Shown here in pieces: positions 32,825-36,719 of a stretch of DNA of 36,891 nt (the first letter of the stretch is position 1; every line of letters starts with the position of its first letter). The notes below the pieces were generated by a model, which searched no databases, had not been told where the DNA came from, and saw only the letters and a program-made list of their open reading frames with translations. Location: NCBI GenBank assembly GCA_016936095.1, contig JAFGPR010000048.1, positions 1 through 36,891 of the forward strand, written 5' to 3'. The translations under genes were made by a program, and so were the position numbers. Origin of the DNA: Ignavibacteriales bacterium (lineage in GTDB: Bacteria > Bacteroidota > Ignavibacteria > Ignavibacteriales > Melioribacteraceae).

Positions 32825-34357
32825 TTATATATCGAATTTGATGCCCTGAGCGAGTGGTAATTTGGAACCATAATTAATTGTATTTGTTTGTCTTCGCATA
32901 TATGCTTTCCAAGCATCAGAACCAGATTCACGTCCACCACCTGTTTCTTTTTCTCCACCAAATGCTCCACCGATTTCTGCTCCCGAAGTACCGATATTCA
33001 CATTAGCAATGCCACAATCTGAACCGACAGTAGATAGAAATTCTTCAGCTTCTTGGAGATCATCTGTAAATATTGCTGAAGATAAACCCTGAACGACATT
33101 ATTATGAATTTCAATTGCTTTGCTAACATTTCCTGTATATTTTATCAGATATAATATTGGAGCGAAAGTTTCTTCCTGTACTATTTCATAGTGATTTTCA
33201 GCTTCTACTATTGCTGGTTTTACATAACATCCAGATTTGTATTCTTCACCTTCTAAAACTTCACCACCGTATATTAGTTTTCCACCCTCTTCTTTTGCTT
33301 TTTGTAATGCATTAACAAAAGATATTACAGCTGCTTTGTCAATTAGAGGTCCAATATGATTTTTTTCGTCAAGTGGATTACCGATCTTAACAGTTTGATA
33401 TGCTTTTAGCAATGATTCTTTAATCTTATCATAAATTTCTGAATGTATAATTAAACGGCGGGTAGTTGTACATCTCTGTCCTGCAGTTCCAACAGCACCA
33501 AATACAACCGCTGGAATTGCCGTTTGTAAATTTGCATTTGGTGTAATTATGATTGCATTATTACCACCTAATTCAAGAATTGTTTTTCCAAATCTTTTCG
33601 CAATAACCTCATTAGCATGACGACCAACAGCAGTTGAACCAGTTATAGAAACAAGAGGAACGCGTTTATCAGTAAGAAATTTCTCCCCAATACTAGAACC
33701 ACGTCCTATAACTAATGAAAATAATCCTTCGGGTAGTTCGTTAGCTTTAATGACATTTGCTAAAATATTTTGAACAGCAATAGCTGTTAGTGGAGTTTTT
33801 GATGATGGTTTCCAAAGATTTGAATCTCCACATACGGTTGCAATCATAGCATTCCATGACCATACAGCAACCGGGAAATTGAACGCTGAAATAATTCCGA
33901 TAATTCCAAGCGGATGGTATTGATCATACATTCTGTGTTTTTCTCTTTCCGAGTGCATCGTGAAGCCGTATAATTGACGAGATAATCCAACAGCAAAATC
34001 GCAGATGTCAATCATTTCTTGAACTTCGCCAAGACCTTCCTGTAAAGATTTTCCCATTTCATAAGAGACTAATGTCCCAAGTGGTTTCTTGTATTTTCTT
34101 AATTCTTCACCAATTAGTCTGACTATTTCGCCTCTCTTAGGTGCAGGAATTGTTCGCCAGTATTTGTATGCTTCATGTGCTTGTTCAACTACTTTGTCAA
34201 AATCTTCAGCTGATGCCTGATATACAGTAGCAATTTGTTTCCCATCAACAGGTGATACTACTTTTAATTCACCTTGGTCAGTTGTTTCAAACCATTTTAA
34301 TCCGGTCGATGCACCGTAGTTTTTCTCTTTGATTCCTAATTCCTTTAAGAATTCCAT
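32825..34357 (-). CDS. Aldehyde dehydrogenase, ALDH7-like
   Basis: An NAD(P)-dependent aldehyde dehydrogenase of 510 residues. Motifs in order are AFNFPVAVWSWN (catalytic Asn), WKPSSKTPLTA (Lys183 of the cofactor site), SITGSTAVGRHANEV, LELGGNN with catalytic Glu262, GQRCTTTRRL with nucleophile Cys296, and EETFAPILYLIKY. The overall sequence, including GRESGSDAWKAYMRRQTNTINYG at the end, follows the ALDH7/antiquitin group. That group oxidises α-aminoadipate semialdehyde in lysine degradation, but the substrate here is not proven and no lysine-pathway gene lies nearby. It starts 15 bases after the Rrf2 gene, with GGAG in between, so the regulator and enzyme form an operon. Confidence 0.93.
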   Translation of the reverse strand: MEFLKELGIKEKNYGASTGLKWFETTDQGELKVVSPVDGKQIATVYQASAEDFDKVVEQAHEAYKYWRTIPAPKRGEIVRLIGEELRKYKKPLGTLVSYEMGKSLQEGLGEVQEMIDICDFAVGLSRQLYGFTMHSEREKHRMYDQYHPLGIIGIISAFNFPVAVWSWNAMIATVCGDSNLWKPSSKTPLTAIAVQNILANVIKANELPEGLFSLVIGRGSSIGEKFLTDKRVPLVSITGSTAVGRHANEVIAKRFGKTILELGGNNAIIITPNANLQTAIPAVVFGAVGTAGQRCTTTRRLIIHSEIYDKIKESLLKAYQTVKIGNPLDEKNHIGPLIDKAAVISFVNALQKAKEEGGKLIYGGEVLEGEEYKSGCYVKPAIVEAENHYEIVQEETFAPILYLIKYTGNVSKAIEIHNNVVQGLSSAIFTDDLQEAEEFLSTVGSDCGIANVNIGTSGAEIGGAFGGEKETGGGRESGSDAWKAYMRRQTNTINYGSKLPLAQGIKFDI

Positions 34358-34372
34358 TTGCTCTCCTTTTTG

Positions 34373-34807
34373 TTATTTATAATTGGATTTAATATTGATT
34401 TTTTCCATTAGAGAATTCAGCGAAATATTTCGCATCTTATCTTCAATATCTACTTGAATTTCTGAAAATAAATTGATAAAATATGAATAAAACGTTTTAG
34501 ATTGTTTGAAATTTTTCCCACTTACCTTATTTACATCAAGATGAAAGGCTTTTCGATTTTCAATTCCACAATACACTTCTTGCATATTTATTTCAATTGG
34601 ATTTTTATTTAGAATGAATCCACCTTTTTTTCCTTTAATACTTGAAACAATATTAACAGCAGATAATTGAGAAAGTAACATCCTAATTTTCGATGCATTT
34701 ATTCCGATGGACTTTGATATTTCAGCACTGCTTTTTGGAGTAGGAAATGATTCAGCGAGATAACAAAGTGCCTTTATAGAGGCTGATAATTTCGTAGATG
34801 TTGACAT
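34373..34807 (-). CDS. Rrf2-family transcriptional regulator
   Basis: A 144-residue winged-helix repressor of the Rrf2 family. The N-terminal HTH region is SASIKALCYLAESFP, SAEISKSIGINASKIRMLLS, then the wing VSSIKGKKGGFILNKNP. The three-Cys iron-sulfur cluster of IscR and NsrR is absent: only two Cys (about 15 and 79) are seen and they are not in the cluster arrangement. It is probably not an Fe-S sensor, unless another ligand or redox signal is used. It is cotranscribed with, and upstream of, the aldehyde dehydrogenase, so it may respond to an aldehyde or electrophile. The palindrome at 34818-34842 just before its start could be its own operator. Confidence 0.9.
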   Translation of the reverse strand: MSTSTKLSASIKALCYLAESFPTPKSSAEISKSIGINASKIRMLLSQLSAVNIVSSIKGKKGGFILNKNPIEINMQEVYCGIENRKAFHLDVNKVSGKNFKQSKTFYSYFINLFSEIQVDIEDKMRNISLNSLMEKINIKSNYK

Positions 34808-34817
34808 AATTTGTTTT

Positions 34818-34842
34818 AATTGTTATAGCAAGTGTAACAATT
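34818..34842. promoter_or_regulatory. Candidate operator of the Rrf2 regulator
   Basis: A perfect 8-bp palindrome AATTGTTA (34818-34825) and TAACAATT (34835-34842) with a 9-base spacer. It begins 11 bases before the Rrf2 start codon. Similar half-sites (TTACAAAATT, TTACAATTTT) follow at about 34859-34879 in the same divergent region. No binding data; inference from position and symmetry. Confidence 0.5.
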
Positions 34843-34949
34843 TAATATTTAATAATCAATTACAAAATTTTACAATTTTATGTTGATTTGATTAAAAATT
34901 TATGTATTTTTAGATAAAGTAATAAAATTATTAAATGAAAAGGTAAAAA

Positions 34950-35246
34950 ATGAAAATTCTAAAAATATCTAGAATATTTGCAGGTTTATTATTGTTTACT
35001 GCAGTTTTTAATTTACCAATGGGTTATTATCATTTCTTACGTGCAGCTGTAATTTTGGTCGCAATATTAAATATTTTTATTGAGTTGAAATATATCAACA
35101 AAATTTGGCTTGTCTTTTTTACTATAACAATAATTATTTTTAATCCAATAATTCCATTTAAATTTAGTTCTGGAGTTTGGACATTTATTGATATTTTATT
35201 CGGAATAATCTTTATCATAAGTGGCTTATCAATGCGAAAAGCTTGA
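34950..35246 (+). CDS. Small DUF6804-like membrane protein
   Basis: A 98-residue hydrophobic protein with three to four membrane helices: IFAGLLLFTAVFNLP, FLRAAVILVAILNIF, IWLVFFTITIIIFNPIIPF and FIDILFGIIFIISGLSM. The MGYYHFLRAAV turn and the FNPIIPFKF segment followed by WTFIDI are the signature I associate with DUF6804. Its function is unknown. It is transcribed away from the Rrf2 gene across the operator region, so it might be under the same control. It is followed by a 75-base gap with no gene. Confidence 0.75.
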   Translation: MKILKISRIFAGLLLFTAVFNLPMGYYHFLRAAVILVAILNIFIELKYINKIWLVFFTITIIIFNPIIPFKFSSGVWTFIDILFGIIFIISGLSMRKA

Positions 35247-35321
35247 AACTAAAAATTATTTAATTAATCAACTTGCTAAAGATGATTTTTAATGGAGAAA
35301 CAAGAATATATTGCTAGGGAT

Positions 35322-36719
35322 TCAGATAATTTTTCTATCCTTGTCTTTTGTTAAAATTTCTTTTGCTTTGTCTCCATATCCTTCTCTACCTAATAGTCCA
35401 TAAGTAGCAATTTTTCCAGCTTCAACCCCTGGTTGATTGAATGCATCAATATTGTATAATTCACCTGCAAATGCAGTCTGAATCTCGTATAACATAATAA
35501 ATTGACCTATTGTGTATTCATTAATTTTTGGGAAAATTATTTTACAACAAGGTCGCCCTTTTGAGGAAATTGCATATTCGGTTGCTTTCATTTCGGAGTT
35601 AAATAGTTCAGATAATTTGTGCCCCGACAAATAGTCTAATGATGAATAATTAGTTCGGAATTTTGGAATTGTTGTGTCATTTCTAAATTCTTCTATTTGT
35701 AAGAAAGTAAATACTTTATTGTTTGGTCCTTCCGTGTATAATTGAACTTGTGAATGTTGGTCTGTAACACCGAGTGCTTTTACAGGTGTTTGACCGATAG
35801 CAATTATCTCACCATTTCTATTTCTATTTTTCCCAAGACTTTCTGCCCAAAGTTGTCTATACCAGTCAGCCCAATAATAAAGAGAATTAGAATAGCTAAA
35901 CATAACGGAAATGTTTTTCTTCTTTTGTGTATCCAGTAAGTAGTGGAAAGTTGCGTTCAAGTAAGCAGGATTTTCGAGTAATTTTTCTGTTTGACATTTT
36001 TTTAGCATATCTTCCGCACCTTTTAGTAAATTTTCAATTTTAATATTTGCAAAACCTGCTGTTAATAGTCCAACACTAGAAAGGACAGAAAATCTACCTC
36101 CAACATTTTCTGGAATAGTAAAAGAATTGATTTTATATTTATCAACTATTTTTCTCAAATCACCATTCTTTTCATCGGTTGTAATTACAAGGTTACGAGT
36201 GAATTTATTCTTTAATTTCCTTTTCAATAAGTCAACGATTATTAAGAATTGGGCTGCTGTTTCTGCGGTTGAACCTGATTTTGAAATTACATTAAACAAT
36301 GTCTTTTTTATATCAATTGTTCTGAGAAAATTGTAGACATATTCTGGATCAATATTATCAAGAATAAATATTTTTAGTCCTTTTCTTTCTTTTTTTGGAA
36401 GAAAATTATGAAAAGTATGTTTTAAAGAATTTAACAAAGCAATATTTCCGAGTGCTGATCCACCAATTCCAAGCACAACGAAATTTTCAAATCTATCTTT
36501 ATTTAACTTCACAAATTTATTTATATCTTTCACAAGTTTCTTATCGAAAGGTAAATTGTAAAACCCGATCTTATCACTTTCTTTATCATTGGTTAAAATT
36601 TTATGATAAGTCTTTGTTATTTCAGAAAATCTTTCAATTTCCAAAATAGAAATTCCTTCTGAACCAATATTTTCTGCAAGCAAATTGGTATAATCAAATT
36701 TTAATGGTAATTTTTTCAT
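35322..36719 (-). CDS. pgi: Glucose-6-phosphate isomerase
   Basis: Interconverts glucose 6-phosphate and fructose 6-phosphate in glycolysis and gluconeogenesis. At 465 residues it is the shorter bacterial class. Motifs: VVLGIGGSALG (81-91), VISKSGSTAETAAQF (144-158), ENVGGRFSVLSSVGL (the PGI signature), DQHSQVQLYTEGP and QPGVEAGK near the end, which carries a catalytic Lys. The start is fixed by AAGGAG at 36727-36732 on the minus strand, and a TAAATTTG box at 36759-36766 lies ahead. It is the only gene of its unit and may supply hexose phosphates made from the GH57 products. Confidence 0.96.
   Translation of the reverse strand: MKKLPLKFDYTNLLAENIGSEGISILEIERFSEITKTYHKILTNDKESDKIGFYNLPFDKKLVKDINKFVKLNKDRFENFVVLGIGGSALGNIALLNSLKHTFHNFLPKKERKGLKIFILDNIDPEYVYNFLRTIDIKKTLFNVISKSGSTAETAAQFLIIVDLLKRKLKNKFTRNLVITTDEKNGDLRKIVDKYKINSFTIPENVGGRFSVLSSVGLLTAGFANIKIENLLKGAEDMLKKCQTEKLLENPAYLNATFHYLLDTQKKKNISVMFSYSNSLYYWADWYRQLWAESLGKNRNRNGEIIAIGQTPVKALGVTDQHSQVQLYTEGPNNKVFTFLQIEEFRNDTTIPKFRTNYSSLDYLSGHKLSELFNSEMKATEYAISSKGRPCCKIIFPKINEYTIGQFIMLYEIQTAFAGELYNIDAFNQPGVEAGKIATYGLLGREGYGDKAKEILTKDKDRKII

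Follow-up and report, generated by a model that had tools for sequence, protein, structure and literature searches.

A conserved palindrome ahead of an rrf2-ALDH gene pair in Ignavibacteriales, a probable autorepressor operator linked to lysine catabolism

The Rrf2 regulator and its partner enzyme among described systems

Regulators of the Rrf2 family are best known for the sensing of Fe-S clusters, NO and cysteine. In IscR, the cluster is held by three conserved cysteines and the protein regulates its own gene from a dyad operator, the sequence of which is other than the one considered here. BadM of Rhodopseudomonas palustris, also a member of the family, is described in the accessible part of PMC6191541 as being released by acetamidobenzoates, a precedent indicating that an Rrf2 repressor can respond to an organic metabolite. 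Here we analysed a stretch of 36,891 nucleotides from an Ignavibacteriales bacterium (contig JAFGPR010000048.1 of assembly GCA_016936095.1; hereafter the window), in which an rrf2 gene is followed by an aldehyde dehydrogenase (ALDH) gene and preceded by a palindrome (Table 1).

The window regulator carries the Rrf2 Pfam domain and scored 61.5 against the NCBIfam Rrf2 superfamily model TIGR00738, under the cut-off of 73.3. Equivalog profiles of the described members gave scores far below their cut-offs, namely 39.9 against 207.55 for IscR (TIGR02010), 26.6 against 182 bits for NsrR (NF008240), 25.4 against 195 bits for CymR (NF047409) and 36 against 180 bits for HypR. An AlphaFold model built from 38 sequences (mean pLDDT 86.3) places helices at residues 3-20, 27-34 and 38-50, strands at 54-57 and 63-66 and a further helix at 100-126, a predicted arrangement that fits the winged helix and long C-terminal helix required of the Rrf2 family. 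The pLDDT falls below 50 at residues 86-91, inside a conserved IEDRKAFHLDV stretch (IENRKAFHLDV in the window). In Foldseek comparisons Rrf2 structures ranked first, including LP_0360 (TMq 0.78), IscR (PDB 4hf0, 4hf1, 4hf2, 4chu and 4cic; TMq 0.64-0.70, 22-25% identity), RsrR and CymR, and the 36 matches with E <=0.001 bear the titles IscR, RsrR, CymR, NsrR, Rrf2 family or putative DNA-binding/transcriptional regulator.

The likeness to IscR is one of fold. Unlike IscR, the window protein does not have the set of three cysteines and it has another gene partner. Its only cysteines are Cys15 and Cys80, in agreement with the initial annotation, which had noted that the cysteine cluster of IscR and NsrR is missing, and, at the level of sequence, the prediction that it does not belong with the Fe-S sensors of the IscR/NsrR type is supported. 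NsrR, CymR, HypR and RsrR have superfamily and fold in common with the window regulator, but the first three differ in the profile scores given above and in the metabolic context, which in the window is that of lysine, and RsrR is only a fold match. BadM would work alike, as a catabolic-operon repressor released by an organic metabolite (PMC6191541, accessible part), although it serves benzoate catabolism whereas the window regulator would serve that of lysine, and the two are likened by description, not by sequence.

With 820.4 bits against NF050084 (cut-off 730), the partner ALDH is by profile an L-piperidine-6-carboxylate dehydrogenase, a lysine-catabolic enzyme, which narrows the earlier description of an ALDH7-like enzyme coupled to Rrf2. 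Structures of ALDH7 and Pcd are among its best PDB matches, and no difference from the ALDH7/antiquitin/Pcd group was seen in its sequence. Given this identity, the natural signal of the regulator is expected to come from lysine/alpha-aminoadipate metabolism. To name the aldehyde itself as the signal is a guess with which Cys80 is compatible, since a conserved thiol could sense a reactive semialdehyde; this cysteine is kept in all 36 rows of our regulator alignment (A2) outside the two tungstate-operon paralogues, which have serine. A literature search for Rrf2 together with saccharopine, aldehyde dehydrogenase or lysine, mostly by title and with thin coverage of subscription journals, found no description of an Rrf2-lysine system. 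The new point about the ALDH7-type enzyme is its predicted control by Rrf2, and the system, with an operator that is most likely autoregulatory, is a lysine-linked branch of a known family.

Table 1. Features of the window around the palindrome
Feature	Position	Strand	Remarks
ALDH7-type L-piperidine-6-carboxylate / alpha-aminoadipate semialdehyde dehydrogenase gene, 510 aa	32825..34357	-	15 nt after rrf2
rrf2-family regulator gene, 144 aa	34373..34807	-	PF02082, 68.9 bits (cut-off 30), residues 4-135
Gap holding the palindrome, 142 bp			AT-rich; between minus-strand rrf2 and plus-strand DUF6804
Extended inverted repeat, few mismatches	34815..34845	no strand	Encloses the 34818-34842 palindrome and the 19-bp core
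Palindrome AATTGTTA-N9-TAACAATT	34818-34842		Separated by 10 nt from the rrf2 ATG (minus strand, 34807)
Predicted operator core TGTTACACTTGCTATAACA, 19 bp	34821..34839	-	Consensus TGTTACA-N5-TGTAACA; 0 mismatches to TGTTACACTTNCTRTAACA
TACACT, putative -10/-7 element	34831..34836	-	Inside left operator arm (+3); 28/30 loci
TTG, putative -33/-35 element	34857..34859	-	Starts 20 nt 5' of core; 28/30 loci
DUF6804 membrane protein gene, divergent	34950..35246	+	PF20619, 66.7 bits (cut-off 27); neighbour only

Position and conservation of the palindrome

The initial annotation had placed a palindrome just before the rrf2 start, and AATTGTTA-N9-TAACAATT is present there and matched exactly once in the 2,627,073-base (2.63-Mb) assembly. 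The core TGTTACACTTGCTATAACA is a single pair away from a perfect 7-N5-7 dyad, and its distance to the rrf2 ATG is 13 nt (core read 34839-34821). Scanning the genome with TGTTACACTTNCTRTAACA at up to two mismatches gave no second match; matches with three mismatches, 18 besides the site compared with 14 in the control, were near control level, and the second match to a looser pattern (G000:C137:15472) falls inside a 1192-aa frame. Taken by itself, the palindrome is not significant, as at least one equal repeat (perfect 8-bp arms, spacer <=20) turned up in 2792 of 5000 dinucleotide-shuffled versions of the 142-bp gap; its significance is comparative, drawn from conservation and from presence or absence together with rrf2 rather than from the single sequence. 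The related half-sites that had been reported from the same gap proved to be at chance level (two words in 34846-34949, where 1.56 would be expected; 2460 of 5000 shuffles reached this number), and the upstream stretches of relatives held no conserved half-site words besides the TTG element.

A search of 97 genomes, comprising the window's own and those of relatives, found the regulator in 33, and 30 loci (the window and 29 others) were analysed. The core TGTTACACTWNNNRTAACA stands before rrf2 in all 30 loci listed, with no mismatch in 24 and one in six, and in each 12-14 nt lie between its end and the rrf2 ATG. Of the 29 non-window loci, 27 have the ALDH gene behind rrf2; in the other two, rrf2 is a tungstate-linked paralogue of about 40% identity. 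In a second set of 52 loci from named species genomes of several phyla, which overlaps the first set, 46 have the core within one mismatch and 48 have the same type of ALDH gene (P0002). Every one of the 42 loci whose records bear the title Ignavibacteria/Melioribacteraceae, or simply Bacteroidetes, Chlorobiota or bacterium, has the core, as do two of six in Calditrichota and two of four in Desulfobacterota; the other six loci, all from the latter two phyla, comprise two with two mismatches, three with three and one (L261) with none reaching three. The proposed check, a search for the palindrome upstream of Rrf2-ALDH pairs in relatives, gave a positive result; the palindrome is real and, as a predicted DNA switch ahead of rrf2-ALDH, strongly conserved.

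Two loci of unusual structure were seen. In Desulfocapsaceae bacterium MO_192.B14 (L239), rrf2 and ALDH are divergent with the site between them and their starts 133 nt apart, and in L102 (G093:C1:1419898-1420306) the rrf2 frame is split in two pieces while the operator in front is intact.

The ALDH gene was found in 82 of the 97 genomes at E <=1e-160. Among the best 30 ALDH loci by score, the site, allowing one mismatch, occurred in 9/9 loci with rrf2 (window included) and in 0/21 without it (Fisher p = 7e-8, with loci treated as independent and kinship ignored), and two of the 21 have a two-mismatch match elsewhere in 900 nt.

At several loci (L098-L101 and L030/L031, in G035, G048, G023 and G010), an Rrf2 paralogue of about 40% identity heads a tungstate ABC transporter operon and the operator is kept. 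This operon holds WtpA (above cut-off in the one representative tested), a MoeA-like gene and, in some cases, a P5C-dehydrogenase gene; G010 has both Rrf2 paralogues, so that cross-talk is possible there. Since the tungstate-linked paralogues retain the operator, it goes with the regulator rather than with ALDH. In the tree these paralogues separate with full support, in a topology where 18 of 35 inner branches are below 80.

Promoter-like layout and alternative explanations

Across the 30 loci, the operator core overlaps a conserved TTG-N20-TACACT pattern. Column counts were taken from an alignment of 45 sites, 15 of them chosen from good-site loci and each anchored on its best match, so that the core columns are conserved partly by construction. 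In this alignment the half-sites are almost invariant, TTG at -20 to -18 is kept in 42-44 of 45 sites, TACACT at +3 to +8 in 44-45 of 45 and in 43 of 45 the ATG stands at a distance of 12 or 13 nt, with little conserved besides; the TTG and TACACT counts were repeated on the 30 unpicked loci (Table 1). A TTG-N20-TAnnnT pattern with its -10-like box in the operator would be the layout of a repressor-controlled promoter, and because the promoter-like bases are partly also operator bases, the two signals are not fully separable.

On the grounds of conservation, position, overlap with the promoter-like pattern and co-occurrence with rrf2, we consider it very likely that 34821-34839 is the operator through which the adjacent Rrf2-family protein represses its own rrf2-ALDH pair and from which a lysine metabolite releases it; to this extent the operator proposed earlier for an Rrf2-ALDH operon is upheld by the sequence comparisons. 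We infer that a dimer of the winged-helix Rrf2 protein would bind the TGTTACA-N5-TGTAACA dyad, that the overlapping pattern would be the rrf2 promoter, that rrf2 would share a transcript with the ALDH gene, which begins 15 nt further on, and that binding, by covering the -10-like TACACT and blocking RNA polymerase, would repress both genes rather than activate them. The effector is expected to be a metabolite of lysine catabolism, with lysine, alpha-aminoadipate semialdehyde/P6C and alpha-aminoadipate as the candidates. Genes of alpha-aminoadipate/homocitrate metabolism may also come under this regulator in some relatives.

Other readings of the site were weighed against this one. IscR, one of the solved proteins closest in fold, has been described as a dual regulator (PMC8119775, accessible part), and Rrf2 might likewise activate, or both activate and repress, from the site, as IscR does at some promoters; the position of the operator on the -10-like element is, however, the place usual for repression and makes this unlikely. 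It is quite unlikely that a different transcription factor binds the site and controls rrf2 while Rrf2 acts elsewhere. Binding by Rrf2 is a prediction and related sites stand before other genes, as such a reading would have it, yet the site is missing from 21/21 rrf2-less ALDH loci and from 18/18 rrf2-less promoters of homoisocitrate-dehydrogenase-like genes (described below), and it stays with rrf2 paralogues ahead of an unrelated operon. The closeness of the inverted repeat to the start codon could also point to a role in RNA, as a leader hairpin or terminator, but 34300-35300 has no match in Rfam, the bases of the arms are conserved instead of covarying, the repeat overlaps the presumed transcription start, and equivalent sites lie before other genes in either orientation, all of which leave this role very improbable. 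As for a chance palindrome in AT-rich DNA, the frequency of equal repeats in the shuffled gaps would allow one, but the conservation of the site refutes this reading, and together with the co-occurrence with rrf2 it makes chance almost inconceivable.

The annotation had further suggested that a shared operator ties the divergent DUF6804 gene to the same response. The DUF6804 start codon is about 110 nt from the operator, in the gap that the two genes share; nevertheless, we regard control of this gene from the operator as highly unlikely. No DUF6804 homologue was found beside rrf2 in the 29 non-window loci (tblastn, E <=1e-5, 1.5-kb flanks). The strongest evidence against a role of the site at DUF6804 comes from the sister genome G001, in which a 66%-identical DUF6804 gene, divergent to a 93%-identical ALDH gene, keeps its place in the same gene order (large gene behind ALDH, ALDH, DUF6804, PGI-family gene) and in which neither rrf2 nor an operator within one mismatch is found between the same neighbours. 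A promoter-like TTG-N19-TATTTT element moreover lies on the DUF6804 side of the gap, outside the operator and between it and the gene. On this synteny DUF6804 was dropped as an operator target, and the suggestion is not supported. The gene beyond DUF6804 belongs to the phosphoglucose-isomerase family (window 35322-36719; PF00342, 129.5 bits) and has an 82%-identical neighbour in G001.

Sites before other genes of relatives and a candidate lysine route

Only matches with zero or one mismatch were followed in the genome scans, because two-mismatch scans were too noisy (20 matches in the window's own genome against 24 in the reversed control, and at most 58 against 33, in G042). With the one-mismatch pattern, 24 rrf2-bearing genomes of the family gave 85 strand matches, rrf2 sites included, against 16 in the reversed control. 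Sites recurred before a homoisocitrate-dehydrogenase-like gene, so named by likeness, its best profiles being homoisocitrate dehydrogenases with scores below their cut-offs (274.8 of 500). Sites with zero or one mismatch precede it in G014, G015, G019, G025, G042 and G044, where the proteins are 79-98% identical; G021 has a two-mismatch site, and in G053 the site is at the end of one contig and the gene is on another, the two contig ends having 14 bases in common. In all, 8/22 genomes with an ALDH-linked rrf2 have such a site (seven within one mismatch and one with two), compared with 0/18 promoters of this gene in genomes without rrf2 (p = 0.004). The 22 were drawn from 29 non-window genomes with an ALDH-linked regulator, G012 being represented by only about 120 nt and G031 (no such gene in a short stretch), G026, G027, G055, G087, G091 and G093 being left out; the 18 remain from 20 rrf2-less genomes of the window's family after removal of G030 (gene absent from the stretch) and G017 (start unclear), and two of them offer only 133-163 nt upstream. 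The site is absent before this gene in 14 of the 22 regulator-bearing genomes and in the three genomes that have a tungstate-linked paralogue only; one of the 14, G010, has a three-mismatch palindrome.

Behind the homoisocitrate-dehydrogenase-like gene lies a cluster encoding an HD-domain protein, a homoaconitase (TIGR00139, 865 bits, cut-off 529.9), an MmgE/PrpD protein, CitE with a fused acyl-carrier-type domain, and CitF; the last two match Pfam domains and are below the NCBIfam citrate-lyase cut-offs (288.5 of 443.4 for CitE and 481.1 of 501.45 for CitF). Among 20 regions downstream of homoaconitase, from genomes with and without rrf2, MmgE/PrpD was found in 17, CitE in 15 and CitF in 12. 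In genus g19 the cluster is divided into two parts, the homoisocitrate-dehydrogenase-like gene and MmgE-CitE-CitF, each of which has the operator in front (L103/L142, L143/L144, and L148/L149 in G053). The arrangement of homoisocitrate-dehydrogenase-like, HD, homoaconitase, MmgE-PrpD, CitDE and CitF genes is conserved across the order (L270-L289, L103, L104, L142-L144).

The 27 rrf2-ALDH neighbourhoods (L072-L097 and L102) hold further genes of lysine metabolism. In 15 of them a gene resembling that of lysine-ketoglutarate reductase (LKR) lies directly behind ALDH, a call based on a tested representative with the expected alanine-dehydrogenase/PNT domains; in five a saccharopine-dehydrogenase (SDH) gene has this place, and in eight, two of which are cut by the locus end, lysine 6-transaminase is encoded close by (629 bits against TIGR03251 for the representative, cut-off 520.8). 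The sites in relatives suggest a lysine/alpha-aminoadipate regulon. In the window's own genome, adjacent LKR- and SDH-like genes on another contig have no operator site, and searches of the assembly, which is 77.7% complete, detected neither homoaconitase nor lysine 6-transaminase nor CitF; in this genome the regulator seems to act locally, on the rrf2-ALDH pair alone. For an Rrf2 clade found in several phyla, these data provide a likely function, operator and regulon, and the regulon can be read from the motif in uncultured Ignavibacteria and their relatives.

The direction of the pathway bears on what the regulon would do. A lysA gene over the cut-off is present in 68 of the 97 genomes, including the window's, G014, G015, G019, G021, G042 and G053, so the alpha-aminoadipate route is probably not needed for lysine synthesis in those genomes; in G025 and G044 no lysA scored above the cut-off, and a biosynthetic role of their homoaconitase genes is possible. 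A biosynthetic, fungal-type reading of the homoaconitase genes was dropped in view of lysA in most genomes and CitDE-CitF in the cluster. Together, lysA, the lyase genes and the lysine-catabolic partners favour degradation by way of homocitrate cleavage, although the cluster also occurs without rrf2 and G042 has a site next to genes of homocitrate-synthase-like and LysX-like proteins. A LysW-type biosynthetic locus is reported for Caldithrix abyssi in the accessible part of PMC5317091.

In such a route, lysine would be converted through saccharopine (LKR/SDH) or by lysine 6-transaminase to alpha-aminoadipate semialdehyde, and further to alpha-aminoadipate and 2-oxoadipate. The latter would be carboxylated back to homoisocitrate by a putative reversal of the dehydrogenase, homoaconitase and/or MmgE-PrpD would isomerise it to homocitrate, and a CitDE-CitF lyase would cleave this to 2-oxoglutarate and acetate. 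The full-text literature searched held nothing on a homocitrate lyase, nor on lysine degradation with homoaconitase and citrate lyase. We advance only tentatively, as a possible but doubtful reading, that lysine catabolism is what this Rrf2 clade represses, that its regulon in relatives constitutes this undescribed route, and that the regulator senses the semialdehyde or another intermediate without Fe-S, with the conserved Cys80 beside the IEDRKAFHLDV stretch as a possible sensor residue. The cluster from the homoisocitrate-dehydrogenase-like gene to CitF, under predicted common control in some genomes, is a candidate lysine-degradation route.

Many of the 45 loci inspected in the scans had sites inside genes, which were taken as chance. 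Intergenic sites seen in a single genome were left uncounted, namely those at receiver/kinase-domain (L151), GH94 (L158), FG-GAP (L161) and rimO (L173) genes, as were those at a lamin-tail-domain gene (L111) and at two genes without a family match (L153, L177), for which there was no second genome. The G042 site mentioned above (L106), which lies between the homocitrate-synthase-like/LysX-like genes and fumC, occurs in one genome and was not counted as conserved. A one-mismatch match that lies within a 219-aa gene, 86 nt from its start, in each of G014, G026 and G042 (L152, L159 and L162) most likely reflects coding conservation; one representative of this gene gave no NCBIfam match. Inspection by eye of promoters of homoisocitrate-dehydrogenase-like genes (L178-L217) also revealed a recurring CTTGC(T)...TATCTAATTTT, perhaps the promoter type of the clade.
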